Assembly: GCA_023266575.1 (NCBI GenBank)
Contig: JAHFPV010000009.1
Span: 62,001 to 126,000, forward strand
Length of the DNA stretch: 64,000 bases
Direction of reading: 5' to 3'
Source: Sphingobium sp.
GTDB lineage: Bacteria; Pseudomonadota; Alphaproteobacteria; Sphingomonadales; Sphingomonadaceae
The position numbers and the translations under genes were made by a program. Position 1 is the stretch's first letter; each line of letters begins with the position of its first letter. Below the pieces are notes generated by a model, which worked only from the letters and a program-made list of their open reading frames with translations, made no database searches and was not told the DNA's origin. This document shows positions 13,262 to 53,638 of the stretch, piece by piece.

Positions 13262-14071
13262 ATGCGGGTGGCGATCGCCAACAGGTTGCGGGGTCGGTCG
13301 ATTGACGGGCTGGCGCTGCTGGAAAAGGGGCTGATCGCCCTGCTGGCGCTGCAACTGGTGCGGCTGGCCTGGGTGGTCGTGACGCCGGTGGGCAGTTTCG
13401 GTCCATGGGAAGGGCGGCAGGCGCAATTGCTGACCCCGGCCGCACGGCAGGCTTTGTTCGCCAGCTTCGATCCCTTCTTTCGCACCGGCGCGCCACAGAC
13501 GGCGGGCAATGGCGTCGTCACATCGCTGGCGCTGACCCTCTATGGCATCCGGTTGAACGAAGGTTCCGGGCTGGGATCTGCAATCATCGCTGCGCCCGAC
13601 GGGGTGCAGAGCAGTTTTGCCGTGGGGGATGAAATCCTGCCCGGCGTGGTGCTGAAATCGGTGGCGTTCGATCATGTGACGATCGACCGGGGCGGGGCCG
13701 AAGAGCAGATATTCCTCGACCAGTCGACGCCAGCGCCCACGGCTGCCCCGGAAGGCGGCGAAACACAGGCACCGCCGCCCGTATCGCCGCCGCCATCGGC
13801 TGGCCCGACCGCCGACAGCCTGAAACGCGACATTGGTTTTGCGCCCCGGATGCAGAATGGCCGGGTGACCGGGCTGGCGGTCAGCGCTAAGGGACCGGGC
13901 TTTGCCAGTGCCGGTTTCCGGCCCGGCGACATTATCAGCCAGATTAACGGCCAGCCGGTGGGCGACCTCCAGTCCGTACAAAATCAGATCGCGCCCGGCG
14001 CGCGCCTGTCCCTGACCGTGGAGCGCGGCGCGGCCGTCGCTTCGGTGAACCTTATAGTGCAAGGCCAATGA
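13262..14071 (+). CDS. gspC: Type II secretion inner-membrane protein GspC
   Basis: GspC links the inner-membrane platform to the secretin in the type II secretion system. The 269-residue protein has a short cytoplasmic start, one membrane segment at about 19-40, a periplasmic homology region at about 80-135 (LTLYGIRLNEGSG through a VGDEILPGV turn), a Pro-rich linker and a C-terminal PDZ-like domain with FASAGFRPGDIISQINGQPV. It is the first gene of a run of 13 overlapping gsp genes. The stop codon overlaps the gspD start as ATGA, so the two are probably translationally coupled. Confidence 0.93.
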   Translation: MRVAIANRLRGRSIDGLALLEKGLIALLALQLVRLAWVVVTPVGSFGPWEGRQAQLLTPAARQALFASFDPFFRTGAPQTAGNGVVTSLALTLYGIRLNEGSGLGSAIIAAPDGVQSSFAVGDEILPGVVLKSVAFDHVTIDRGGAEEQIFLDQSTPAPTAAPEGGETQAPPPVSPPPSAGPTADSLKRDIGFAPRMQNGRVTGLAVSAKGPGFASAGFRPGDIISQINGQPVGDLQSVQNQIAPGARLSLTVERGAAVASVNLIVQGQ

Positions 14072-16263
14072 CCAGATATTTCCTCCCCCTTTCCGCCGCG
14101 CTTGCGCTGGTTCTGGCCGCGCCGGGCATGGCGCAGCAGACGCTGAACGTCCGCGACGCCGATATTCGCGCCTTCATTCAGGATGCCGCGCGGGTGACGG
14201 GGCGCACCTTCATCATCGACAATCGGGTGCAGGGGAAAGTGTCGGTCGTGACCGACCGGCCCTTGTCGCGGTCTGAATATTTCGAGATCGTTTTGTCCAC
14301 GCTGCGCGCCAATGGCCTCGTCGCCGTGCCAGCGCCCGGCGGCGCCTATCGCATCCAGCCCGCCGATGGCGCAGCCGGGCAGCCCAGCAGCGTGGGCCGC
14401 GCGGCCAATCGCAACAGTTTCGTGACCGAAGTATTCCGCCTGCGCTCCATCGATGCCGCAAGCGCGCTGGAAACGCTGCGCCCGCTGGTCAGCAAGGACG
14501 GGTCGGTGACCGCCAATCGCGCCGGCAATAGCGTGGTCGTGGCCGACTATGCCGACAATATCGCCCGCATCCGGCAGGTGATCGCACGGGTCGATCGCGA
14601 TGTGTCGTCGACGCAGATGGTCATGCTGAAAAATGCCGGTGCGCGGGAGATTGCGACATCGCTTCAGGCGCTGGTGGTAAGCAGCGGCGGGGGCGAGAAT
14701 GCTTCGCCGTCGGCAGCGACCGTGGTGCCGATCGACAGCAGCAATGCCGTCGCGATCCGTGGGGACGCCAACACTGTCGCGCGCCTTGTCGCGATGGCGC
14801 GGCAACTGGACCAGCAGGCCGCCAGTGGCACCGAAATCCGGGTCTATTGGCTGGAACATGCGGACGCGGAAAAATTGCTGCCGGTGTTGCAGCAGCTGGT
14901 CGGGCAATCGACCAGCCAGCCGGTCACTGCCTCCACCCCGGCGGCGGGCGGCGCGGCCCCCGCGAGCGCGGCGGCGCCTCCGGTTGCGGCGGCATCCTCC
15001 TCGTCCAGTGGCAGCGGCATTTCGACGCGCGGCCCGGCGATCGTGACCCGCTATGAGGGCGCGAACGCGATCATCGTTGCCGCCAATAGCGACGTGCAGC
15101 GGATGCTGGGCGAAACCATCCGCCAGATCGACACGCGGCGCGAACAGGTGCTGGTCGAGGCGATCATTGTCGAAATCAGCGATGCAGCGGCCAAAAAGCT
15201 GGGCGTGCAATTCCTGATCGGCAGCACATCGACCGGCTTTGCCGCGACCAATTACAGCAACGCTTCGCCCAATCTGCTGACGCTGGCGGGTGCCTATGGC
15301 GCGACGCAGCTCGGCACCACCACGACAACCGTGGTCGCCCCTGATGGCACGCGCACCACAACCGAAGTGCAAAATAGCGGCGATCTCGCCAGCACGCTCC
15401 AGCAATCGGCGATCAACAGCCTGACCAGCGCTACCGGGGCGATTGCAGGCCTTGGCGGCAGCATCGGCAAGAACGGGATTTTCGGCGCGATCATCAATGC
15501 GGTGAAGTCCGATACGGAAAGCAATCTTCTCTCCACCCCCTCGGTGATGACGCTGGACAATCAGAAGGCGTCGATCCTGGTCGGGCAACAGGTGCCGGTG
15601 ACCACGGGCGAGGCGCTCTCCCAGAATTTCGACAACCAGTTCCGCACCGTCCAGCGACAGGATGTCGGCATCAAGCTGGAGGTGAAGCCCCAGATCAACA
15701 CCGGCGGCGCGATCAAGCTGTTCCTGCGGCAGGAAGTGTCGAGCGTGGCCGGACCGGTCAGCAACTCCAGCAGCGACCTCATCATCAACAAGCGCGAGAT
15801 CGAAACGACGGTCACGGTCGATGATGGCGAGATACTGGCGCTGGGCGGACTGCTGGACGATAATGAGCGCAAGACGATTGAGCGCATCCCGTTGCTCAGC
15901 GACATTCCGGGCCTTGGCGAACTGTTCAAGTCACGCAGCCGCAGCCGGACCAAGACCAATTTGATGGTGTTCATCCGTCCGACCATCCTCCGCTCGAAGG
16001 AGGATGCGCAGAAGCTGACCCAGCAGCGCTACGGCTATGTCCGCAACATGCAGTTGCAGCGCAATCCCGACATGGAGCCGACGATCGACGAGCTGGTCCG
16101 CGACTATATGGGCGCAACCCCGCCGGTCGCCGCCCAGCCGGGCGATGCGGTGGTGCAGCCTGATGTGCCGCCCAACGCGCCACAGGTGATAGAACCGACC
16201 GTGCGCCAGTCGAGCGGCGTGGTGCGGCCGGTCGAAATAGCGCCGAGCGGAGAACGCAAGTGA
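14068..16263 (+). CDS. gspD: Type II secretion outer-membrane secretin GspD
   Basis: GspD forms the outer-membrane channel. The 731-residue precursor has a signal peptide ending GMAQ, an N0 domain (LNVRDADIRAFIQDAARVTG), repeated N1-N3 ring domains and a C-terminal secretin domain with LLSTPSVMTLDNQKASILVG and a VPVTTGE motif. A Ser/Ala/Pro-rich insert lies near residues 290-320 between ring domains. The protein ends in a basic tail with no obvious pilotin-binding S-domain. Spacing to gspE is 124 bases, unusually long for this operon, and is filled by a palindromic repeat. Confidence 0.95.
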   Translation: MTRYFLPLSAALALVLAAPGMAQQTLNVRDADIRAFIQDAARVTGRTFIIDNRVQGKVSVVTDRPLSRSEYFEIVLSTLRANGLVAVPAPGGAYRIQPADGAAGQPSSVGRAANRNSFVTEVFRLRSIDAASALETLRPLVSKDGSVTANRAGNSVVVADYADNIARIRQVIARVDRDVSSTQMVMLKNAGAREIATSLQALVVSSGGGENASPSAATVVPIDSSNAVAIRGDANTVARLVAMARQLDQQAASGTEIRVYWLEHADAEKLLPVLQQLVGQSTSQPVTASTPAAGGAAPASAAAPPVAAASSSSSGSGISTRGPAIVTRYEGANAIIVAANSDVQRMLGETIRQIDTRREQVLVEAIIVEISDAAAKKLGVQFLIGSTSTGFAATNYSNASPNLLTLAGAYGATQLGTTTTTVVAPDGTRTTTEVQNSGDLASTLQQSAINSLTSATGAIAGLGGSIGKNGIFGAIINAVKSDTESNLLSTPSVMTLDNQKASILVGQQVPVTTGEALSQNFDNQFRTVQRQDVGIKLEVKPQINTGGAIKLFLRQEVSSVAGPVSNSSSDLIINKREIETTVTVDDGEILALGGLLDDNERKTIERIPLLSDIPGLGELFKSRSRSRTKTNLMVFIRPTILRSKEDAQKLTQQRYGYVRNMQLQRNPDMEPTIDELVRDYMGATPPVAAQPGDAVVQPDVPPNAPQVIEPTVRQSSGVVRPVEIAPSGERK

Positions 16264-16280
16264 TGCACCCTCCTTTCCTC

Positions 16281-16379
16281 CCGTTCGGGCTGAGCTTGTC
16301 GAAGCCCTCGCCTGAGCGGAGCGAAGGCATTGCTTCACTTCGTTCAGCAGGAGGCTTCGACTTCGCTCAGCCAGAACGG
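16281..16379. repeat. Palindromic repeat in the gspD-gspE gap
   Basis: Ends CCGTTCGGGCTGAG... and ...CTCAGCCAGAACGG are imperfect inverted copies, with inner arms GTCGAAGCC and GGCTTCGAC. It belongs to the same family as the repeat in gspG. The last bases of the element (GGAG at 16378-16381) form the gspE ribosome binding site, six bases before its ATG. Confidence 0.85.
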
Positions 16380-16387
16380 AGTTTTGT

Positions 16388-17932
16388 ATGAGCGAACACA
16401 CATCCGCGTCCGCAGATGTTTCGGCGGCTCCATCTCCACGCGCCATCGACATCCCCTACAGCTTCGCGCGCAAGCATGGCGTCGTGCTGCTGCCGCAGGA
16501 GGGCGAGCGCCTGGCCATCGCGGTGCGTGAAGGCAGCGATCCGCGCATCCTGCTCGAAGTCCGCCGCCATCTCGCGCGCAGTTTCGATGTCAGCTTTGTC
16601 GATCCGGCCGATTTCGACCGGCATCTGTCCAACCATTATGCGATGGATGGCAGCGCGGCGGCCATGGCCGGGTCGATCGACATGGGCGCGGACGAGCTGG
16701 ACATGTTGGCGGCCGATATCCCGACCGCCGACGATCTGCTAGACAGCGCCGATGACGCGCCTGCGATCCGGCTGATCAACGGCATCATCGCCGAAGCCGC
16801 CCGGCAGGGTGTGTCGGACATTCATATCGAACCCTATGAAACGGGCCTGGTCGTCCGGATGCGGATCGACGGGGTGCTGCGCGAAACGCTGCGGATGCCG
16901 CCCCATGTCGCGCCGGTGGTGGTCAGCCGCGTCAAGGTGATGGCGCGGCTCGACATTGCCGAACGACGGGTGCCGCAGGACGGGCGGATCGGCCTGACGC
17001 TGGGCGGCAAATTGCTCGACGTGCGCGTATCGACCCTGCCGAGCCGGGCAGGCGAGCGGGTGGTGCTGCGTATCCTGGACAAGGAAAATGCCGGGATCAC
17101 GCTCGACCTGCTGGGCATGAACGGGGTGCCGGACCGGATTTTCCGCGAGGGGTTGAGCGAACCCAATGGCATCATCCTGGTCACCGGGCCGACCGGTTCG
17201 GGCAAGACGACGACGCTCTATGCCGGTTTGCGGCAGTTGAACGATGGCAGCCGCAATATCCTGACCGTCGAGGACCCGGTCGAATATGCGATGGAGGGCG
17301 TGGGCCAGACGCAGGTGAATGCCAAGGTCGGGCTGACCTTCGCCGCCGGGCTGCGCGCGATCCTGCGGCAGGACCCCGACGTCGTGATGGTCGGCGAAAT
17401 TCGCGATCGCGAGACGGCGGAGATTGCGGTGCAGGCATCGCTGACCGGGCATCTGGTGCTGTCCACGGTTCACACCAATGACGCAGTTGGCGCGATCACG
17501 CGGATGCGCGACATGCGGGTCGAACCCTTCCTGCTCGCCTCCACCCTGCGCGCCGTCATCGCCCAGCGGCTGGTGCGGCGGCTGTGCCAGCATTGCCGCG
17601 AACCAGTGCAGGCGGACAAGTCGGCAAGCGCTTTGCTGGGTTTCGATCCCGGCACTATCATCTATCGCGCCAAGGGTTGCGGCGAATGTGGCGGCACCGG
17701 CTACAAGGGGCGGATCGGCGTGTTCGAGGCGATCCGGGTCGACGACACGATCCGCCGTCTCATCAACGACGGCGGCGATGAATCGCTGATCGCGCGGCAC
17801 GCTTTCCTCAACGCCCCCAATCTGGGATCGGCGGCGCGGGCGCTGGTGCGCGACGGGCAGACGACGGCGGAAGAAGCGATCCGCGTGTCGCGGCGCGACA
17901 GCGTCGAGGCGGAAACCATCGTCGATGGCTGA
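16388..17932 (+). CDS. gspE: Type II secretion ATPase GspE
   Basis: GspE is the cytoplasmic hexameric ATPase that powers pseudopilus assembly. The 514-residue protein has an N-terminal GspL-binding domain, Walker A GPTGSGKT at about 264-271, the Asp and His boxes, Walker B in QDPDVVMVGEIRD, and a four-cysteine zinc motif (CQHC at about 399 and CGEC at about 431). Length and motif order are normal for GspE rather than PilB. Its stop codon lies eight bases inside gspF. The ribosome binding site comes from the end of the preceding palindromic repeat. Confidence 0.96.
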   Translation: MSEHTSASADVSAAPSPRAIDIPYSFARKHGVVLLPQEGERLAIAVREGSDPRILLEVRRHLARSFDVSFVDPADFDRHLSNHYAMDGSAAAMAGSIDMGADELDMLAADIPTADDLLDSADDAPAIRLINGIIAEAARQGVSDIHIEPYETGLVVRMRIDGVLRETLRMPPHVAPVVVSRVKVMARLDIAERRVPQDGRIGLTLGGKLLDVRVSTLPSRAGERVVLRILDKENAGITLDLLGMNGVPDRIFREGLSEPNGIILVTGPTGSGKTTTLYAGLRQLNDGSRNILTVEDPVEYAMEGVGQTQVNAKVGLTFAAGLRAILRQDPDVVMVGEIRDRETAEIAVQASLTGHLVLSTVHTNDAVGAITRMRDMRVEPFLLASTLRAVIAQRLVRRLCQHCREPVQADKSASALLGFDPGTIIYRAKGCGECGGTGYKGRIGVFEAIRVDDTIRRLINDGGDESLIARHAFLNAPNLGSAARALVRDGQTTAEEAIRVSRRDSVEAETIVDG

Positions 17933-19142
17933 GTTTGACTATGTCGCGATCGACCCGGCGGGCAAGGAACGGAAAGGCGCGCTGAAGGCCGAAACGCTGG
18001 AGGATGCGCGGGCGAAGCTCGACGCGCGCAAGCTGTTCATTGTCGAACTCAGCGCCGGCGCGGTCGAGGTGGCGCGCAAGCGGACAGGCCTGTCGCTGCG
18101 CACGCCGCGCCTCAGCCCCAAGGAACTGACCCTGTTCACCCGCCAGCTGGCGACGCTGACCCAGGTCAGCCCGCTGGAGGAATCGCTGCGCACCATCGGG
18201 CGGCAGAGCGAGCAGGACCATGTCCGGCTCATTGTCGGCAAGGTGCATGGCGGCGTGATGGAAGGGCGGCGACTGGCCGATGCGCTGGGCGTGGAGCCGA
18301 AAAGTTTTCCGCCACTCTATCGCGCGATGATCTCCGCTGGCGAAAGTTCGGGCAGCCTGCCCGCGATCATGGAGCGCCTGTCCGACCTGATGGAGCGGCA
18401 GGCGCTGATGCGGTCCAAGGTGCTGACCGCGATTGCCTATCCGTCGGTGCTGGCCAGTTTCGCGGTGCTGGTGGTCGCGGCGCTGATGATCTTCGTCGTG
18501 CCCAAGGTGGTCGAGCAATTCGACACGGTCGGGCAGGAATTGCCGCTGCTGACCCGGATGGTGATGGGACTGTCGGCTTTTCTGGCGGGCTGGTGGTGGC
18601 TGCTGTTGATCCTGATCATACTGGCTGGCGTCGGCTTCTGGCGGGCGATGAAGAATGAGCGCTTCCATTATCGCTTCGACGCGATGCTGCTGGGTCTGCC
18701 GGTGCTGGGCAAGCTGATCCGTGATCTGCACGCCGCGCGGATGGCGCGGACGCTCTCGACCATGGTGGCAAGCCGCCTGCCCTTGCTGGAGGGGCTGACG
18801 CTGACCGCCAACACGGTGCACAACCGGGTGCTGCGGCGCGCGTCGGATGACATTGTCGAGGCTATTCGTGGCGGCGGCAGCCTGTCGGCGGCGCTCCGGC
18901 GGTCCGGAGTTTTTCCGCCCTTGCTGGTCTATCTGGCAGCGAGCGGCGAAAGCGCCGGGCGGCTCGACACGATGCTGGAGCGGGCAGCGGAATATCTGGA
19001 ACGCGAATTCGACGCCTTCACCTCCACCGCGCTCGCCATGCTCGAACCGATCATCATCATTATGATGGGCGCGATCGTCGCCGTCATCATCCTGTCCATC
19101 CTGCTGCCGATCTTGCAGCTGCAAAGCCTGACCGGGGCTTAG
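17925..19142 (+). CDS. gspF: Type II secretion platform protein GspF
   Basis: GspF is the polytopic inner-membrane platform protein that GspE acts on. The 405-residue protein has two related cytoplasmic GspF domains (about 70-195 and 275-395) separated by membrane segments near 170-190 and 215-240, with a last segment near the C terminus (MLEPIIIIMMGAIVAVIILS). Family phrases such as LTLFTRQLATL and SGESSGSLPAIMERLSD-like turns are present. Its start overlaps gspE by eight bases. gspG follows after nine bases with a strong AGGAG site that lies directly after the gspF stop. Confidence 0.95.
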   Translation: MAEFDYVAIDPAGKERKGALKAETLEDARAKLDARKLFIVELSAGAVEVARKRTGLSLRTPRLSPKELTLFTRQLATLTQVSPLEESLRTIGRQSEQDHVRLIVGKVHGGVMEGRRLADALGVEPKSFPPLYRAMISAGESSGSLPAIMERLSDLMERQALMRSKVLTAIAYPSVLASFAVLVVAALMIFVVPKVVEQFDTVGQELPLLTRMVMGLSAFLAGWWWLLLILIILAGVGFWRAMKNERFHYRFDAMLLGLPVLGKLIRDLHAARMARTLSTMVASRLPLLEGLTLTANTVHNRVLRRASDDIVEAIRGGGSLSAALRRSGVFPPLLVYLAASGESAGRLDTMLERAAEYLEREFDAFTSTALAMLEPIIIIMMGAIVAVIILSILLPILQLQSLTGA

Positions 19143-19151
19143 GAGTTGAAT

Positions 19152-19694
19152 ATGGTTACACTAAAATCCGTTCGGGCTGAGCTTGTCGAAGCCCTGCCTT
19201 TCTTCAGAAGAAAAGAACAGTCCTTCGACAGGCTCAGGACGAACGGGGAAGAGGGATTTGGGTCCGTCAGGCGTTCCGCCGAACATGGCTTCACCCTCGT
19301 GGAGCTGATGGTCGTCATCGTCATCATCGGCCTGTTGGCGACGATCGTGGCGATCAACGTCATCCCGGCCACCGACACCGCGCGGGTAGAGAAGGCGAAG
19401 GCGGATATCGCGACGATCGAACAGGCGCTGGAGCAGTATCGGCTCGACAATCTGACCTATCCGGCTGGGTCGGACGGGTTGCAGGCGCTGCTCAATCCAC
19501 CCGCATCACTGGCGCAGCCGCAGCGTTACCGGCGTGGCGGCTATATCAAGAAGCTGCCCGACGATCCGTGGGGCCGCGCCTATGTCTATACCGTGCCGGG
19601 GCGCAAGGGCGCGTTCGACATCAGTTCGCTGGGTGCGGATGGCCAGCCCGGCGGCGAGAGTGAAAATGCGGATATCTATTCCAGCGAACTGTAA
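19152..19694 (+). CDS. gspG: Major pseudopilin GspG with repeat-extended leader
   Basis: GspG is the major pseudopilin that polymerises into the type II secretion piston. Processing is expected at HG/FTLVELMVV, where the conserved Glu5 and the hydrophobic helix follow; the C-terminal half contains the usual DGLQALL and DPWGRAYVY segments. The ATG at 19152 has AGGAG six bases upstream, and no other in-frame start lies before the cleavage site. This gives a 46-residue leader, against about 6-12 in typical GspG. Residues about 7-32 of the leader are encoded by a 79-bp palindromic repeat. The mature protein looks normal. Confidence 0.93.
   Translation: MVTLKSVRAELVEALPFFRRKEQSFDRLRTNGEEGFGSVRRSAEHGFTLVELMVVIVIIGLLATIVAINVIPATDTARVEKAKADIATIEQALEQYRLDNLTYPAGSDGLQALLNPPASLAQPQRYRRGGYIKKLPDDPWGRAYVYTVPGRKGAFDISSLGADGQPGGESENADIYSSEL
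19168..19246. repeat. Palindromic repeat inside the gspG leader
   Basis: Outer arms begin CCGTTCGGGCTGAGC and end GCTCAGGACGAACGG, with GTCGAAG/CTTCGAC inside and a small TTC-agaa-GAA hairpin at the centre. It is related to the repeats at 16281-16379 and 53639-53785. It is translated in frame as part of the prepilin leader. Confidence 0.88.
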
Positions 19695-20232
19695 CCCCCG
19701 TGAGCCGTTCTCTGGCGAAAACCGGAGTCTAGGGTTCCGCGCTCAGCGTCCGCAAACCTGGGTCCCCGCCTTCGCGGGGACGCGCTCAAGTGCCAATGAG
19801 CGCGGCTTCACGCTGGTTGAGCTGATGGTCGTCCTGACGATCATCGGTTTCATTTCGGCTGCCGTGGTGCTGGCCATCCCCGATCCGCGCGGGCGCGTGA
19901 TCGAGGATGCCGACCGCTTCGCCGCGCGCGTTGCCGCCGCGCGCGACGAAGCGGTCGTTACCGCCGCCCCGATGGGGCTGTGGGTGTCAGCCTCCGGCTA
20001 TGGCTTTCAGCGCCGCGATGGCGGGCAATGGGTGGCGTTGGAGGACAAGCCCTTCGTCACCGCCAACTGGAAAGGCGGCACCCGCGCGCTGGTCGGCAAG
20101 GATGGGCGGCAGCAGATTGCGTTCGACGGCACCGGCCTGCCGACCGACCCGCTGACCGTGACGCTGGCGCGCGAGGGCGAGCGGGTGTCGGTAACGGTTG
20201 ACATGGCGGGGAAGGTCATGGTCGGTGGGTAG
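19666..20232 (+). CDS. gspH: Minor pseudopilin GspH with repeat-extended leader
   Basis: GspH is a minor pseudopilin near the tip of the pseudopilus. The cleavage site is ERG/FTLVELMVV, followed by one hydrophobic helix and a short beta domain rich in Gly and Trp. Between the gspG stop and the cleavage site there is no in-frame start codon, so translation must begin inside gspG. The ATG at 19666 is the best choice, with GTG at 19660 as an alternative, giving a leader of about 47 residues. Part of that leader (TWVPAFAGTR) is encoded by a palindromic repeat. Mature length is normal. Confidence 0.88.
   Translation: MRISIPANCNPREPFSGENRSLGFRAQRPQTWVPAFAGTRSSANERGFTLVELMVVLTIIGFISAAVVLAIPDPRGRVIEDADRFAARVAAARDEAVVTAAPMGLWVSASGYGFQRRDGGQWVALEDKPFVTANWKGGTRALVGKDGRQQIAFDGTGLPTDPLTVTLAREGERVSVTVDMAGKVMVGG
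19758..19784. repeat. Palindromic repeat inside the gspH leader
   Basis: The core GTCCCCGC-CTTC-GCGGGGAC (19762-19781) is a perfect hairpin preceded by CTGG. It is a half-length member of the family seen complete in gspI at 20246-20313, and is read in frame as WVPAFAGT. Confidence 0.85.
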
Positions 20233-20710
20233 AGGCCGTCTCCAACGTGTCCCCGCGCAGGCGGGAACCCAGTCCCGCGACCTGAACTGGGTCCCCGCCT
20301 GCGCGGGGACACGCTCAAGTGCCAATGAGCGCGGCTTCACGCCTTTGATGCGTTCCGCCCAACAGGGCTTCACTCTTTTGGAAATGCTGGTCGCGCTGGC
20401 GGTGTTCAGTCTGGCGGCGCTGGCGCTGGTGCGGTTGCAGGGGGTGACGCTGCGCACGGCGGCTGATCTGGACAGCAAGGCGCTGGGCCAGATCGTCGCG
20501 CGCAATCTGATGGTCGATGTGCAGAGCAACCCCGTGCCGCCTTCGGTTGGCGAGGAAGCGGGCGAGGTCGAGAATGGCGGGCGGCGCTGGCACTGGAGCC
20601 GGACTGTCAAGCCTACCGACGACCAGCGGCTGTTGCAGGTCGACCTGACTGTCGATGGCCAGCCGGGCGCGTCGTCGGTGGTGCTGAGCTTTGTGCGGGT
20701 GGTGGAGTGA
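20225..20710 (+). CDS. gspI: Minor pseudopilin GspI with repeat-containing leader
   Basis: GspI is a minor pseudopilin of the tip complex. The cleavage site is QQG/FTLLEMLVALAVFS, followed by the membrane helix and the usual small globular domain. I take the GTG at 20225, which overlaps the gspH stop and has GGGGAAGG nine bases upstream; this makes a 48-residue leader containing a full palindromic repeat. An ATG at 20348 would give a seven-residue leader (MRSAQQG) of normal size, but has no visible ribosome binding site. The leader also contains a second, vestigial NERGFT cleavage-like sequence copied from gspH. Confidence 0.85.
   Translation: MGRGRLQRVPAQAGTQSRDLNWVPACAGTRSSANERGFTPLMRSAQQGFTLLEMLVALAVFSLAALALVRLQGVTLRTAADLDSKALGQIVARNLMVDVQSNPVPPSVGEEAGEVENGGRRWHWSRTVKPTDDQRLLQVDLTVDGQPGASSVVLSFVRVVE
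20246..20313. repeat. Palindromic repeat inside the gspI leader
   Basis: Two 27-base arms, CGTGTCCCCGCGCAGG... and ...CCTGCGCGGGGACACG, match at 26 of 27 positions around a 14-base centre. The frame stays open through the whole element and reads VPAQAGTQ and WVPACAGT. Confidence 0.9.
20312..20342. repeat. 31-bp duplication of gspH leader sequence within gspI
   Basis: The 31 bases here are identical to 19783-19813 in gspH, spanning the SSANERGFT leader and cleavage-site codons. Both copies directly follow a palindromic repeat of the same family, which suggests the repeat and its flank were copied together. Confidence 0.9.
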
Positions 20711-21453
20711 TGGTGGCGCGCCTCAACCGACATCCGTTCGTTTCGAGCGTGTCGAGAAACGTCTGGCACAGTGCTGGCCGTTTCTCGACTTCGCTCGAAA
20801 CGAACGGATATGGGGGTGATAAGACCAAGGGTGACGATGGATTCACGCTGATCGAACTGCTCGTCGCCCTGATGATCTTTGCGATGCTGGCCAGCGCCGG
20901 TGTTCTCCTGCTGGGCAACAGCGTGTCGGCGCAGGCGCAGGTCAAGGCGCGGCTGGACGATATGGCGGCGGTGCAGCGGGCGGGCGGGGCGCTGGCGGGC
21001 GATCTGGGACAGGCGGTGCCGCGCATCACCCGTACCGAGAGCGGCACGCTGGCACCGGCCTTTTGGGCGCACCACGAAAGCGAGGATCAGCCGGTGATGC
21101 AATTTGTGCGCGGCGGCTGGGACAATCTGGGCGACCTGCCCCGGCCATCGCTGCAAAAGGTGGAATATTGGGTGCGGCAGGGACGGCTGGAGCGGCGGAC
21201 CTATGCGCAGCTGGATGGCGCGGCGGGGGATGAGCCTGCGGCGTTGCTGGAGGATGTCGAGGCGGTCGCGCTGAAATTCCGCGATGCGGCGGGCAAATGG
21301 CGCGACGACTGGACCCCGACCCAGCCTGACCTGCTGCCCCGTGCGGTGGAGATGACGCTCACCCGCACTGGCGAGCCGCCCGTGACTTTGCGCTTTCTGG
21401 TTGCGCCCGGCCCGGTCGAAAAGCCGATCATCGAAGGCGCCCCCGGTGTCTGA
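20710..21453 (+). CDS. gspJ: Minor pseudopilin GspJ with repeat-extended leader
   Basis: GspJ is a minor pseudopilin of the tip complex with GspI and GspK. The cleavage site is DDG/FTLIELLVALMIF, followed by about 200 residues of globular domain including YWVRQGRLERRTYAQLDG, typical of GspJ. The ATG at 20710 overlaps the gspI stop (TGATG), and no in-frame start lies after the repeat and before the cleavage site. The leader is therefore 44 residues, largely made of a 78-bp palindromic repeat. The protein otherwise has normal length. Confidence 0.92.
   Translation: MVARLNRHPFVSSVSRNVWHSAGRFSTSLETNGYGGDKTKGDDGFTLIELLVALMIFAMLASAGVLLLGNSVSAQAQVKARLDDMAAVQRAGGALAGDLGQAVPRITRTESGTLAPAFWAHHESEDQPVMQFVRGGWDNLGDLPRPSLQKVEYWVRQGRLERRTYAQLDGAAGDEPAALLEDVEAVALKFRDAAGKWRDDWTPTQPDLLPRAVEMTLTRTGEPPVTLRFLVAPGPVEKPIIEGAPGV
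20732..20809. repeat. Palindromic repeat inside the gspJ leader
   Basis: Arms ATCCGTTCGTTTCGAGCG and CGCTCGAAACGAACGGAT are exact inverses, continued by inner arms GTCGAGAAACG and CGTTTCTCGAC. It shares the CCGTTCG end with the gspG-type repeats but has a different body. Confidence 0.9.
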
Positions 21454-22435
21454 TTCGCGCAAACCCAATGAACGGGGCGCGGCGCTGCTGACCGTGCTGC
21501 TGCTGGTGGCGGTGATGGCTGTAGTCGCCGCGACCGCGCTGGAGCGGGTGGCGCTGGCCACGCGGATGACCGGCAATGGTGGCGCGATCGATCAGGCGCG
21601 CGCCTATGCCGATGCCGCCACGGCGGTCGCGCGCTTGCGGATCGGCGATCTGGTCGCGGCCAATCCGGCGAAGATCACGCTGGCCGGCGGCTGGCTGGGC
21701 GCGCCGCAGAGCATTCCGGTGCCGGGCGGCACCGCGACGGCGCGGGTCACCGATGGCGGCAATTGCTTCAACCTCAACAGCGTGGCGAGTGGCGAGAGCG
21801 AGGCGAGCCTGAAAGTGCGGCCTATCGGCGTATCGCAATTTCAGGGGCTGTTGGTGGCGCTGGGTGTCGATGCGCGGCAGGCGCAGGGCGCGGCGGCGGG
21901 GCTGGCCGACTGGATCGACAGCGATGGCGATCCGCAGCCGGGCGGGGCGGAGGATGCGGTTTACGGGCAGACGCAGCGGCCCTATCGCGCCGCCAATCGC
22001 CTGATGATCGACGCCAGCGAATTGCGTGCGGTGAACGGGATCACACCTGCCGTCTATGCGACGGTGCGGCCCTGGGTCTGCGCGCTGCCGGTCACGGATT
22101 TGTCGCCGATCAACATCAATACGCTGCTGCCCGAACAGGCGCCGCTCTTCGCGATGCTGCTGCCGGGGCAATTGAGCGTCGCGCAGGCGCGGCAATTGCT
22201 GGCGCAGCGGCCCGTGGATGGCTACGGCAGCACGGTGCAATTCTGGGCCTTGCCCTCGCTCGCCGGCCTGTCGCCGATGACCGAGGTGGCCGAGCAGGTC
22301 AAATTGACGACGGGGTTTTTCGGAGTGGACGTGGCAGTGACTGTCGGGGGAACGCAGCTGATGGAGCGGTCGCTGATCGACGCGCGGGAAAGCCCGGCGA
22401 CGGTGGTGCGGCGCAGCTGGGGCGCAGGGGCATGA
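21446..22435 (+). CDS. gspK: Minor pseudopilin GspK
   Basis: GspK caps the pseudopilus tip. The 329-residue protein starts at a GTG that overlaps the gspJ stop codon by eight bases, and has a short leader SDSRKPNERG before the cleavage site G/AALLTVLLLVAVM. It lacks the Glu5 of other pseudopilins, as expected for GspK. The body contains the large alpha-helical insert and the segment DLSPININTLLPEQAPL typical of the family. It has no repeat in its leader, in contrast to G, H, I and J; its NERG sequence matches that of gspH. Confidence 0.93.
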   Translation: MSDSRKPNERGAALLTVLLLVAVMAVVAATALERVALATRMTGNGGAIDQARAYADAATAVARLRIGDLVAANPAKITLAGGWLGAPQSIPVPGGTATARVTDGGNCFNLNSVASGESEASLKVRPIGVSQFQGLLVALGVDARQAQGAAAGLADWIDSDGDPQPGGAEDAVYGQTQRPYRAANRLMIDASELRAVNGITPAVYATVRPWVCALPVTDLSPININTLLPEQAPLFAMLLPGQLSVAQARQLLAQRPVDGYGSTVQFWALPSLAGLSPMTEVAEQVKLTTGFFGVDVAVTVGGTQLMERSLIDARESPATVVRRSWGAGA

Positions 22436-23550
22436 GCGCGCGCGACGCCCTGATCGTCTTTCTGCCCGAAGTGGCGGATGCGCCGCCGCACTGGATGCGG
22501 GTGGTCGATGGCGCGCTGGTGCAGTCGGGCGAGGGCGCGAACTGGCTGGCGGCGTGTGGTATAGCGGCTTTGCCTGAAGAGGCGCGGGTGTTGCTGGTGC
22601 CGCCTGCGGCTCTGGTGGCGTTGCACTGGACGCTGCATCCCGACTTGCCGGTGCGGCAGGCGCGGGCGGCAGCGCGGCTGGCGGCGCTGGCGGAGGCAAT
22701 CCTGCCTGCCGATCAGCTGTTTGCGGTGACCGATGCGCAGGATGACCCGGCCCGCCCCCATGTCGTGGCACTGGCGGCGCGCGGCGACATGCAGCATTGG
22801 CTGCTCTGGGCGCAGCATCATGGGCTGGACCCCGACATGATCGTGCCAGCGCCTTTGTTGCTGCCGGAGCCGGAGACTGGTTTTACGTGCGGCGTCATTG
22901 GTGGCGTGACGGTGCTCCGGGGCGCGGACATGGCGCTGACCGGGGACATGGCCTTGCCCACGCTGATCGGCGACGCGCCGGTTGTCGATGTGCCGCCAGG
23001 CGTGATCGAGGGACGGGCGATCGCCGCGCTGGACGCCCCGCCCATCGACCTGCGGCAGGGGGATTTTGCCAAGCGGGTGCGGCGGCAGGTCGATCAGCGT
23101 GCGCTGAAACGGGTGGCGTTGTGGAGCGGGCTGATCCTGCTAACCGCGCTGCTGATTGCGCTGGTCGGCATCGTCAAAAGCTATCGTGAGGCCAGTCGGC
23201 TTGACGCGGAGAGCCTGGCGCTGGCGCAGCAGGTTGTGCCCGGCGCAAGCGATGCGCGCCAAGCGCTTGGCGCGATGGAGCAGCAGCTTGCCGCGCGGGG
23301 TGCTGGCGGTCGGGCCTTTACCGCGCCGGTCGCGGCGCTGATGGCAGCGATGCAGGATGCGCCCGGCGTGGCGCTGACCAGCCTGTCGCGCGACCCGGAC
23401 GGAATGCTGCGCGCGACGCTGGCGGCAGCGAAGGCGGATGACATCAACATCGTGCTGCTCGAGCTTCAGGCGGCGGGCTTCACGATCACGGCGACACCCG
23501 CGCAGGAGCCGGGCGGGCGGACGCTGGCAGAGATTACGGTGCGGTCATGA
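22432..23550 (+). CDS. gspL: Type II secretion protein GspL
   Basis: GspL recruits the GspE ATPase to the inner membrane. The 372-residue protein has an N-terminal cytoplasmic actin-like domain (about 1-215), one membrane segment at about 228-248 (LWSGLILLTALLIALVG) and a C-terminal periplasmic ferredoxin-like domain. The start overlaps the gspK stop codon as ATGA. Sequence conservation is low in this family, so the call relies on architecture and on the position between gspK and gspM. Confidence 0.9.
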   Translation: MSARDALIVFLPEVADAPPHWMRVVDGALVQSGEGANWLAACGIAALPEEARVLLVPPAALVALHWTLHPDLPVRQARAAARLAALAEAILPADQLFAVTDAQDDPARPHVVALAARGDMQHWLLWAQHHGLDPDMIVPAPLLLPEPETGFTCGVIGGVTVLRGADMALTGDMALPTLIGDAPVVDVPPGVIEGRAIAALDAPPIDLRQGDFAKRVRRQVDQRALKRVALWSGLILLTALLIALVGIVKSYREASRLDAESLALAQQVVPGASDARQALGAMEQQLAARGAGGRAFTAPVAALMAAMQDAPGVALTSLSRDPDGMLRATLAAAKADDINIVLLELQAAGFTITATPAQEPGGRTLAEITVRS

Positions 23551-24032
23551 TGGAACGGATGCAGGCACTCTGGGCGGAACGATCGCCCCGCGAGCAGGTG
23601 ATGCTGGGTGTGATGTTCGCCCTGCTGGCAGGCGTGATCCTCTGGTTCGGGGTGGCGATGCCGCTCGACCGGGCGCAGCGGTCGGCACGCGATACGTTGC
23701 TGGAGGCGACGGATCGCAACGCGGCGGTGCGCGCGGCGGTGCGGCAGTTGAAAGCGCTGCCCCGTGCGGTGGAAGGCGGCCCGTCCGCGCCGCTCGACCA
23801 GCTGGTTGGGCAGGGCGCGGGTGAAGCCGGGCTGACGCTGGAACGGGTGCAGGCGCAGGGACCGGACCGGATGGAGATCGCCATCGCCTCGATCCGGCCG
23901 GTCGCGCTTTTCTCCTGGATTGCCACGCTGGAGGCGCAGGGGGTGCGGGTCGATACGATGAGTGCGCGGCCTGCGCCGACCGCTGGCAGCCTGTCGGTGC
24001 AGGCGGTGCTGGTGCGGGGAGCGGGGCAATGA
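23547..24032 (+). CDS. gspM: Type II secretion protein GspM
   Basis: GspM pairs with GspL in the inner-membrane platform. The 161-residue protein has a short cytoplasmic start (ERMQALWAERSPREQVML), one membrane segment at about 18-38 and a periplasmic domain of ferredoxin-like size with a coiled segment after the membrane. The start overlaps the gspL stop as ATGA, and the stop overlaps gspN. Architecture and position make the call. Confidence 0.88.
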   Translation: MMERMQALWAERSPREQVMLGVMFALLAGVILWFGVAMPLDRAQRSARDTLLEATDRNAAVRAAVRQLKALPRAVEGGPSAPLDQLVGQGAGEAGLTLERVQAQGPDRMEIAIASIRPVALFSWIATLEAQGVRVDTMSARPAPTAGSLSVQAVLVRGAGQ

Positions 24033-24751
24033 TGGGCCTTATCCTCTCGCGCCGGATGCGAATTACGTTGCTGGTGATCGTGCTGCTCGGCCTGCTCCTC
24101 TTTTTGCCGATGCGGGTCGCGTTGGGGCTGGCTGGGCTGGAGCGGCTGGGCGTGGCCGCGCGGGACGTGCGTGGCACGGTGTGGAGCGGGCGGATCGACC
24201 AGCTGATGTTGGGCGATATGCCGATGGGCAGCGTCCGCGCGGGCCTCTCCCCGCTTGCGTTGCTGACAGGCCGGGCGCGGTTCGACATTGCCCGGACCAA
24301 GGGGCTGGCCGACGACATATCCGGCGCGCTGACCGTCGGGTTCGGGCGGATCGGGGTGGATGATGTGAGCGGCGCGGTGCCATTAGGCCGCACCTTCGCG
24401 CCGCTGCCGATCGCCAGCCTCCAGTTGGAGGATGTGTCCGCCTATTTTACCGGCGACCGGTGCGGTCATGCCGAAGGACGAGTGCGGGCGCGGATGGCCG
24501 GGCAGTTTCCGGGGCTGAACCTGTCGCAGGGCTTTTCGGGCGCTATCGCCTGCGATGGCGACGCCCTGTCGCTGCCGCTCGCCAGCCAATCGGGCATGGA
24601 AACGATCGCGCTGCGCATCTGGCGGTCGGGCCGTTATAGCGCCACGATGCGGGTCGAAACCGCCGATCCCACGCTGGCGGCATCGCTGGGGCAGGCGGGC
24701 TTTGCGACCGTGGGCAATGCGCAGGTGCTGAAGGTCGAAGGCACATTGTGA
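24029..24751 (+). CDS. gspN: Type II secretion protein GspN
   Basis: GspN is an accessory component present in some type II systems. The 240-residue protein has one N-terminal membrane segment (ITLLVIVLLGLLLFLPM) and a periplasmic beta-rich domain with the family phrase VRGTVWSGRI and LGDMPMGSVRAGLSPLALL. Its precise role is not settled. The start overlaps gspM and the stop overlaps the GTG start of gspO. Confidence 0.87.
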   Translation: MMGLILSRRMRITLLVIVLLGLLLFLPMRVALGLAGLERLGVAARDVRGTVWSGRIDQLMLGDMPMGSVRAGLSPLALLTGRARFDIARTKGLADDISGALTVGFGRIGVDDVSGAVPLGRTFAPLPIASLQLEDVSAYFTGDRCGHAEGRVRARMAGQFPGLNLSQGFSGAIACDGDALSLPLASQSGMETIALRIWRSGRYSATMRVETADPTLAASLGQAGFATVGNAQVLKVEGTL

Positions 24752-25482
24752 TCTTGGCGACGCTGCTGGGCGGGGTGGTCGGCGCGATTTTCGGCAGTTT
24801 CCTCGCCACCCTGATCCTGCGCTGGCCGCAGGGGCGGGGGGTGGCGCGGGGTCGGTCGGCCTGCGATGGCTGTGGCCGGACGCTGACGCCGCTTGATCTG
24901 ATCCCGTTGCTCAGCGCCCTCTTGCAACATGGCCGTTGCCGGACGTGCGGCGCGGCGATCGATCCGCTGCATGGGCGGGTGGAACTGAGCTGCGCGATCA
25001 TCGGCGCGCTGGCGATCGGCGCGATGCCGGATCTGGGCGGGATTGGCTGGGCCTTGCTCGGCTGGCTGCTGCTGACGCTGGCGGTGCTGGACTGGCGGCA
25101 TTATTGGCTGCCCGATGCACTGACGCTGCCGCTTGCCTTTATGGGGCTGACGCTGGGCCTGTGGGCGACCGATGTGGAGCTGATCGACCGGATCATCGGC
25201 GGGGCGCTGGGCTATGGCAGTCTGCTGGCGATTGCGCTGGCCTATCGCGCGGTGCGGGGGCGTGAGGGGCTGGGGCTGGGCGACGCGAAGTTGCTGGGCG
25301 CGCTCGGCACCTGGTTTGGCTGGCAGGCCTTGCCCTTCATCCTGCTGATCGCGGCGATGGCGGGGCTTTGCGTCATGCTGGTGACGGGCCGGGCAAAAGA
25401 AGCGACGGCGCGGGTGCCGCTCGGCACGTTTCTGGCGCTGGCGGCGGTGCCGGGCTGGTATTGCGTTCGCTTCCTATACTGA
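24748..25482 (+). CDS. gspO: Prepilin peptidase GspO
   Basis: GspO is the inner-membrane aspartate peptidase that cuts prepilin leaders and methylates the new N terminus. The 244-residue protein has two CxxC pairs (Cys39/42 and Cys64/67) for zinc, and the two catalytic aspartates in LDWRHYWLPD (Asp115) and GLGDAKLLG (Asp179), with about seven membrane segments. The start is GTG, overlapping the gspN stop. It is the only prepilin peptidase in the window and is the enzyme expected to remove the unusually long leaders of GspG, H, I and J. The operon ends here. Confidence 0.94.
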   Translation: MILATLLGGVVGAIFGSFLATLILRWPQGRGVARGRSACDGCGRTLTPLDLIPLLSALLQHGRCRTCGAAIDPLHGRVELSCAIIGALAIGAMPDLGGIGWALLGWLLLTLAVLDWRHYWLPDALTLPLAFMGLTLGLWATDVELIDRIIGGALGYGSLLAIALAYRAVRGREGLGLGDAKLLGALGTWFGWQALPFILLIAAMAGLCVMLVTGRAKEATARVPLGTFLALAAVPGWYCVRFLY

Positions 25483-47867: not shown

Positions 47868-48350
47868 ATGGCCGATAAAGTGAACAACCTTCAGGACATT
47901 TTCCTGAACAGCCTGCGCAAGAGCAAGACCCCGGTGACCATGTTTCTGGTCAAGGGCGTGAAGCTGCAAGGCATCATCACCTGGTTCGACAATTTTTCCG
48001 TGCTGCTGCGCCGCGATGGCCAGTCCCAGCTGGTGTACAAGCACGCCATCTCCACCGTGATGCCCGCCCAGTCGATGGACCTGACCGACCTGCGCAAGGC
48101 GAGCGACGGCAATGGCAAGGCCAAGCTGTTGCAGGAAATCTTCCTGACCGCCGTCCGCAAATCCGGCAGCCCGGTGACCATGTTCCTGGTCAATGGCGTG
48201 ATGCTTCAGGGCGAAATCGCCGCTTTTGACCTGTTCTGCATGTTGCTGGAGCGCGATGGCATGGTCCAGCTGGTCTATAAGCACGCCATTTCCACGGTCC
48301 AGCCGCTCCATTCGCTCGACCTGTCGGGCGAGAATGAACAGAACGACTGA
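47868..48350 (+). CDS. hfq: Tandem-domain RNA chaperone Hfq
   Basis: Hfq helps small RNAs pair with mRNAs. Normal Hfq is about 75-100 residues and forms a hexamer; this 160-residue protein holds two full Sm-like Hfq domains, about 6-66 and 86-146. Both keep the proximal-face motif YKHAISTV (Lys58/His59 and Lys138/His139). The distal and rim regions differ: domain one keeps LRRDGQ, domain two has LERDGM and Gln-Glu in place of Gln-Asp at its start. A trimer of two-domain chains would make the six-fold ring. hflX, often next to hfq, is absent; glsA follows instead. Confidence 0.95.
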
Positions 48351-53613: not shown

Positions 53614-53638
53614 AGTGCAATGCCCTTAGTTTGCCTAA

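Follow-up and report, generated by a model that had tools for sequence, protein, structure and literature searches.

The stretch of 64,000 nucleotides studied here (the window) stems from the genome of a Sphingobium species and carries on its forward strand an operon for a type II secretion system (T2SS) with the gene order gspC-D-E-F-G-H-I-J-K-L-M-N-O (positions 13262 to 25482; recognized through the Pfam families T2SSC, Secretin, T2SSE, T2SSF, T2SSG, GspH, T2SSI, T2SSJ, T2SSK, T2SSL, T2SSM, T2SSN and Peptidase_A24). Four consecutive genes of this operon, gspG, gspH, gspI and gspJ, contain palindromic repeats that stand in frame within the leader preceding the predicted prepilin cleavage site; the leaders comprise 46, 47, 48 and 45 codons, respectively (44 in gspJ when counted from its ATG), and these features, to which the original prediction had drawn attention, can be read directly from the DNA. 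The encoded proteins are T2SS pseudopilins, with matches above the cut-offs to the Pfam domain N_methyl and to T2SSG, GspH, T2SSI and T2SSJ, respectively. The prepilin peptidase gene gspO occupies the distal end of the operon (24748 to 25482; A24_N_bact at 8.6e-22 and Peptidase_A24 at 2.3e-21). The nearest named genomes are those of Sphingobium sp. AS12, S. terrigena and 'S. indicum' BiD32, whose GspF proteins are 98-99% identical to that of the window.

All leaders lie on the forward strand. The gspG leader (19152 to 19289) starts with an ATG at 19152, with AGGAG positioned 6 nt upstream, and its cleavage is predicted, from sequence reading and the N_methyl match, before the TTC at 19290. It harbors a dispersed palindromic repeat of family G (about 19168 to 19248; genomic matches and local BLAST), and a single copy of a 21-nt core (CGTTCCGCCGAACATGGCTTC, 19272 to 19292; core pattern match) extends across the cleavage site. 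The gspH leader (19666 to 19806) begins with an ATG located within the end of gspG and contains a hairpin of the repetitive extragenic palindromic (REP) type, here called REP1 (19760 to 19781), followed by a second hairpin (19782 to 19803). The gspI leader (20225 to 20368), counted from a GTG that overlaps the end of gspH, holds two REP1 units in inverted orientation (20246 to 20313; repeat matches and local BLAST) and a core of the Q type across its cleavage site (CGTTCCGCCCAACAGGGCTTC, 20351 to 20371; core pattern match), while the gspJ leader (20707 to 20841), starting with GTG 20707 or ATG 20710, includes a repeat of family J (20727 to 20814). The leader of gspK (21446 to 21478), with 11 codons from GTG 21446, is short and devoid of a repeat, just as had been claimed before, and serves as a natural control. 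That translation has to cross the repeats had been deduced from the lack of later start codons; this holds for gspG, gspH and gspJ, in which no in-frame ATG, GTG or TTG is present between the repeat and the cleavage site, and the GTG of gspI overlapping gspH was correctly recognized as well, but an in-frame TTG-ATG of gspI (20345/20348) that follows the repeat and would give a possible 7-residue leader (MRSAQQG) had been overlooked.

The reading of these leaders rests on a comparison within the genus. A GspF match was found in 91 of 94 genomes (own included), and gspG to gspJ were taken from 80 of them; 77 of 81 loci (the window and 76 congeners) gave all four cleavage motifs, L056, L063, L110 and L117 were dropped, and seven more congeners (L330 to L336) were read outside the counts. 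The position of the start codon relative to the upstream stop codon is nearly fixed: measured from the stop of gspG, gspH and gspI, respectively, 75 of the 77 loci have the ATG of gspH at -26, 70 have a GTG or ATG of gspI at -5, and 73 have a gspJ start codon at -1; the first ATG after gspF is present in 74 of the 77 loci. The cleavage site is in frame with this conserved start in 70 of 75 gspH genes (68 of them stop-free), 70 of 70 gspI, 71 of 73 gspJ and 72 of 74 gspG genes, across 39, 32, 37 and 41 distinct leader lengths, respectively, and among 37 representatives with less than 88% identity the frame is kept in 34/35 gspH (32 open), 30/30 gspI and 32/33 gspJ genes. Congeners with 7-codon gspI leaders, which offer a single possible start (for example VGKREAG-FTLLEM, with the cleavage site between G and F), mark the point at which translation starts. 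Windows of 15 residues with a mean hydropathy above 1.6 were encountered in none of 195 in-frame leaders versus 10 of 390 translations of the other frames (Fisher P 0.035). Selection for positive charge was considered and rejected (net charge 2.8 in frame versus 5.9 and 5.5 in the other frames, with 40 of the 195 in-frame leaders at or below zero). Since the start position and the frame are kept while the lengths vary freely, the gspG to gspJ leaders, repeats included, are very likely translated. The original view that the repeats are read through, and that the leader is a tolerant site, thus gains from the start and frame kept over 77 loci and from a gspO gene with both peptidase domains.

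The leaders themselves are hypervariable. They span 19-85 codons in gspG, 12-107 in gspH, 7-93 in gspI and 7-89 in gspJ, ahead of a mature GspG that measures 134 residues in 75 of 75 cases and a mature GspJ whose length has a coefficient of variation of 0.011. Comparison with the three near relatives revealed mature parts that are 89-97% identical next to leaders that are sometimes unrelated: identity drops to 49% in the gspJ leader (AS12) and to 45.5% and 44% in the gspG and gspH leaders (S. terrigena), and the gspH leader measures 141 nt (47 codons) in the window versus 48 nt (16 codons) in AS12 and BiD32. Other leaders are conserved (gspG 99% and gspI 97% with respect to AS12). As to their contents, 95 of the 304 leaders carry palindrome families, 71 carry two or more copies of the 33-nt unit described below, and 148 carry either; 76 leaders have at most 16 codons, and 44 with at least 26 codons show neither a palindrome nor an array. 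These classes are approximate, as they rest on self-written peptide signatures made after reading the leaders. At the gspK junction, a single distance is found in 45 of the 57 loci in which the gspK motif was detected (it was not found in 20 of 77). An assembly error as the source of the repeats, named beforehand as a possible pitfall, is unlikely, because dozens of other genomes hold related but non-identical insertions at the same place.

One kind of leader filling consists of palindromic repeats dispersed over the genome. REP1 (GGGTCCCCGC..GCGGGGAC), present in gspH and gspI, has 43 genomic matches at three or fewer mismatches, and counts by eye gave 40 or more sites for each of the families of gspG and gspJ, numbers that are lower bounds, as 40 of 118 and 122 candidates were scored. 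The three families (REP1, G and J) are mostly intergenic (24/30, 27/30 and 27/30 of the loci fetched), as judged by a simple codon-usage gene finder that miscalled gspH's own copy as intergenic; some of these 90 loci represent one element counted twice. All five copies found in the 64-kb window reside inside the gsp operon, one of them, of the gspG family, outside genes in the gspD-gspE spacer (16281 to 16379; sequence reading, genome match and local BLAST); local BLAST of the window adds just a weak 21-nt match at 53635. With 116-300 elements genome-wide, 0.4-1.0 copies would be expected in the 12.2-kb operon, and the Poisson probability of five copies is 6e-5 to 4e-3. Within the genus, inverted repeats with arms of at least 12 nt number 38 in 32.0 kb of leader DNA versus 54 in 126.6 kb of mature coding DNA, a 2.8-fold higher density; this ungapped detection finds such arms in 38 of the 304 leaders, presumably few since many elements are imperfect. 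No match to the transposase domain Y1_Tnp, the mark of REP-associated tyrosine transposases (RAYT), was found in the own genome, and mobilization by a RAYT gene of this genome was accordingly rejected; 23 of 94 genomes of the genus possess one.

Seven repeat loci outside gsp were called in or at an open reading frame, and three of these look truly in frame. One is L152 (own genome, C25:159031-159118), where an amidohydrolase-like protein (named by eye) has a Sec-type signal peptide (MSYKNH...SARTVLGALFFVLSTPALA) whose n-region includes an in-frame palindrome of the gspG family; this is another type of cleaved leader with a repeat. L133 (own genome, C16:7781-7802) encodes a cysteine-desulfurase-like enzyme (named by eye) whose central part includes, in frame, a pair of the REP1 type (LRHSREGGNP...DPRLRGDDG), and in L127 the repeat lies in frame at the C-terminus of the protein. 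In L124, L161 and L206 a good start codon follows the element, and the match of L138 within a conserved gene is probably due to chance.

The second kind of filling is peculiar to these leaders. Many of them hold tandem copies of the motif R-SA[EQ]xG-F-xxxx, the last of which is located at the real cleavage site. The underlying 33-nt unit combines a 21-nt core (CGTTCCGCCSAANASGGCTTC), which stems from the surroundings of the cleavage site, with a variable 12-nt spacer. The units follow one another head to tail, and 108 of 110 successive pairs are spaced by exactly 33 nt, hence a tandem repeat of constant period. Among 108 internal units 95 are distinct; their core shows little variation save for the two stem-closing bases and the loop, and the spacer is far more variable. 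The codons of the core in internal units deviate strongly from those of the mature genes (CGT 0.93 versus 0.09, TCC 0.97 versus 0.17, GCC 0.98 versus 0.31, GAA 0.94 versus 0.37, CAA 0.84 versus 0.15), and 32 distinct copies of the real cleavage site use CGT at 0.81 and TCC at 0.84. In 41 pairs of neighboring units, the divergence amounts to 5.5% for the core and 24.4% for the spacer; between units from different genomes it is 10% and 46%, respectively, compared with roughly 34% at the third codon positions of mature gspG.

Within the genus, the core pattern was detected in 66 of 94 genomes and, among the matches listed, 150 of 150 lie within 3.5 kb of a gspF. These include a divergent T2SS (GspF 29-32% identical), which G018 and G067 have as their only detected T2SS and G052 as an additional one. 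Four such loci (L325 to L328; G018, G067, G052 and G060) carry the 33-nt unit in their pseudopilin leaders; in G060, for which the divergent T2SS is also the only one found, it is represented by one single variant copy. Across the family, an exact core match occurs in 23 of 298 genomes, belonging to 13 of the 96 genera (the reversed control gave 0); 67 of the 87 matches listed lie within 3.5 kb of gspF, and the other 20 (G277, G231 contig C53 and G245 contig C114) are in gspG, gspH, gspI or gspJ leaders where opened. Every core copy that was opened resides in a pseudopilin leader. The class-wide count of one in 385 genomes says little about the family, because just five of these genomes (own included) are members of it. 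When 18 loci from other genera, other named genomes and divergent systems were read, nine of them held 31 tandem units with a per-base agreement of the core of 0.81-1.00; one of these nine array loci (M0605) is from congener G050. G231 stands out with 31 core copies: a gspG leader array with seven or more units is truncated by the start of its contig C53 (L355), and contig C84 (L368) holds another gspG with a leader array, so that such arrays may break or confuse assemblies. In G277 (L339, C1:1376043), gspH-I-J are situated about 147 kb from the gspF found there, with arrays in the gspH and gspJ leaders.

Leader DNA also appears to have moved between genes. The gspH and gspI leaders of the window share a 56-nt block that is 96% identical (19758 to 19813 and 20287 to 20342; alignment including congeners) and comprises the REP1 hairpin, the second hairpin and, in gspH, the cleavage-site codons GGC TTC ACG; in gspI, it ends in a decoy site (ANERG-FT) upstream of the real one. 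The gspH genes of AS12 and BiD32 possess a 16-codon leader with GGA TTT AC(T/G) at the cleavage site, and in AS12 the block occurs in gspI, where it forms a decoy that precedes the cleavage site of this gene. In the simplest reading of these alignments, a gspI-type decoy block would have overwritten both the leader and the cleavage site of gspH in the window.

We consider it rather probable that the leaders of GspG, GspH, GspI and GspJ are translated but disposable, and that such hypervariable leaders represent, in the main, a by-product that is tolerated and whose length is not tuned. The start, the frame, the two fillings and the shared block emerge from the comparison of loci, and from these we infer translation, removal by GspO and an exchange driven by GGCTTC. 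In the envisioned scenario, translation would begin at the near-fixed codon by the upstream stop and cross whatever DNA lies there, and GspO, whose gene is present, would cut off the whole leader before the phenylalanine at +1. An in-frame, stop-free and non-hydrophobic insert would be tolerated, because the leader would be translated and subsequently removed. The leader could then be filled either by genome-wide palindromic (REP-like) elements or by the locus-specific 33-nt tandem repeat, which would have expanded from the DNA around the cleavage site (CGTTCCGCCSAANASGGCTTC and a further 12 nt). The sequence GGCTTC(AC), often common to the four adjacent cleavage sites, may serve as a microhomology hub for slippage and for the copying of blocks from gene to gene, so that gspG to gspJ would form a hot spot, while gspK would be quiet because its cleavage site in the window does not contain GGCTTC(AC). 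Arrays are found in 64 of 200 leaders with GGCTTC at the cleavage site versus 7 of 104 leaders without it, and the median leader measures 40 versus 20 codons. The best explanation, in our view, is that leader removal would make the leader a tolerated site for both landing and recombination. The tolerance idea of the original prediction is thereby retained as far as the tolerant site is concerned, but on its own it leaves the near-fixed gspK start (45/57), the 33-nt arrays and the block shared by gspI and gspH unexplained.

Several observations weigh against this explanation. The association between GGCTTC and arrays is partly circular, as the units themselves carry GGCTTC, and GspK is elsewhere a substrate of GspO as well, yet gspK is quiet. 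Out-of-frame configurations at the conserved offset occur in 5 of 75 gspH and 2 of 73 gspJ genes, and two further gspH genes contain a stop. Moreover, 107 of 167 leaders of at least 30 codons have an in-frame ATG, GTG or TTG within their last 25 codons, and gspI of the window (ATG 20348) and other leaders of this kind might use such a later start. Read in this way, translation would generally initiate after the repeats and the open frames would be accidental, a view to which we give very little credence: the frame and the start offset are preserved across 32-41 leader lengths, and the remaining 60 of the 167 leaders (22 of 59 in gspG, 9 of 50 in gspH, 11 of 25 in gspI and 18 of 33 in gspJ) have no such later start, while a later ATG is missing from 41, 39, 15 and 30 of these 59, 50, 25 and 33 leaders, respectively. 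REP elements act as mRNA-processing or stabilizing hairpins between some operon genes, and the repeats at four successive gene junctions and at gspD/E would suit such an intercistronic role, with their position inside leaders being a mere consequence of overlapping genes. This is highly improbable in our view; the repeats appear to be translated and ribosomes would therefore open such hairpins, the signatures of palindrome families are present in only 95 of the 304 leaders (an approximate count), and near relatives carry different families at the same junction. The similar leader lengths in the window had also been considered a possible sign of function, for instance by delaying the insertion or processing of pseudopilins. 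A selected length would fit the finding that the GspG leader never falls below 19 codons (75 loci), but since congeners have H, I and J leaders with minima of 7-12 and maxima of 89-107 codons, with differences even among near relatives, equal length as a function was rejected, and we regard selection on length as extremely unlikely.

A further objection concerns the 33-nt unit, as the conservation of its core at synonymous sites and across genera exceeds what plain tolerance predicts; the disposable-leader explanation must therefore be supplemented by repeated horizontal exchange, by constant recopying or by selection acting at the nucleic-acid level. If the last of these were true, the core would function as nucleic acid, folding into a hairpin in mRNA or in single-stranded DNA and acting, for instance, in ribosome pausing, mRNA placement or membrane targeting, and the palindromic repeats would merely share its tolerant site. 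The synonymous codons of the core, fixed against usage in internal units, would agree with this, as would its near-identity in other genera and divergent T2SSs and the difference between neighboring units in core and spacer (0.055 versus 0.244). The core can form a 4-bp hairpin (GCCS-AANA-SGGC) whose closing pair is flipped jointly in the EH/EN and QQ variants; this pair is standard in 236 of 247 units versus 147.6 expected, and in 91 of 95 distinct units (z 8.8), counts that are inflated by shared descent, and the other three stem pairs hardly vary. On the other hand, the core is not required, as 171 of 304 leaders end without SA[EQ]xG, and its copy number ranges from 0 to 7. A second hairpin within the 12-nt spacer was dismissed, as it shows no covariation (429 of 570 versus 428.2 expected), and sliding-window folding provides no distinctive minimum at the site: -8.4 kcal/mol is reached at -6, yet mature coding DNA attains -9.6. 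On balance, we judge selection on such a nucleic-acid element to be rather unlikely. What can tentatively be entertained is a prepilin-leader-specific 'satellite' of the Sphingomonadales, a 33-nt unit whose core may be maintained as DNA or RNA in the GspG to GspJ leaders, copied among the four genes, and which would exploit the removal of the peptide. If true, this satellite spans many genera and independent T2SSs; in any event, nucleotide-level conservation within a discarded peptide makes the unit a puzzle.

Coding minisatellites, or variable number tandem repeats, arise by slippage, and the 33-nt units resemble them in their head-to-tail order and in a copy number that varies among species; they differ in that the core is conserved at synonymous sites while the spacer is variable, and in that the cleavage site of the gene itself forms part of the unit, which turns up in four genes as well as in separate T2SS loci. 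The leaders of class III signal (prepilin) peptides are usually short, whereas those of gspG to gspJ, which share with them the G-F cleavage motif, the glutamate at +5, the N_methyl domain and a nearby gspO, reach up to 107 codons. Rickettsia palindromic elements (Ogata et al. 2000, 2002), as far as their description in the review PMC10969869 is drawn upon here, are palindromes of about 150 bp that are inserted in frame into many unrelated protein-coding genes; by this description, the earlier comparison with them is apt as regards in-frame insertion within open reading frames. The gspG to gspJ leaders are different in that distinct short families are all stacked within a single position, namely the leader that is cleaved off, in four genes lying next to each other, and in their rapid turnover and their second, locus-specific repeat. 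REP elements and RAYTs are described in many bacteria (PMC2817692, as far as consulted), and the gsp repeats resemble them as short hairpins with tens of copies per genome that are mostly intergenic and often form inverted pairs. They depart from them through the missing Y1_Tnp match in the own genome and their predicted translation, and the start of REP1 is devoid of the GTAG/GTGG-like foot of the REPs tabulated in the consulted part of PMC2817692. Repeat-filled prepilin leaders are undescribed in the titles and abstracts of the literature searched, whose coverage mostly leaves out subscription journals. In-frame palindromic elements (PMC10969869) and REPs with transposases (PMC2817692) are known from the parts of these sources used here, and what is apparently new is the concentration of repeats in cleaved prepilin leaders and a leader-specific satellite made from the cleavage site; more may prove to be new.

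These data suggest that proteolytic removal may create a safe harbor for repeats within genes, with gspK, from the operon itself, as a control. Ranging from 7 to 107 codons and in many cases unrelated in sequence, the 304 leaders stand ahead of a mature protein of near-constant length and provide a replicated natural experiment on the requirements of prepilin leaders. Elsewhere in the window, a 192-nt direct repeat with 72% identity is formed by positions 47892 to 48083 and 48132 to 48323, whose copies are 240 nt apart.

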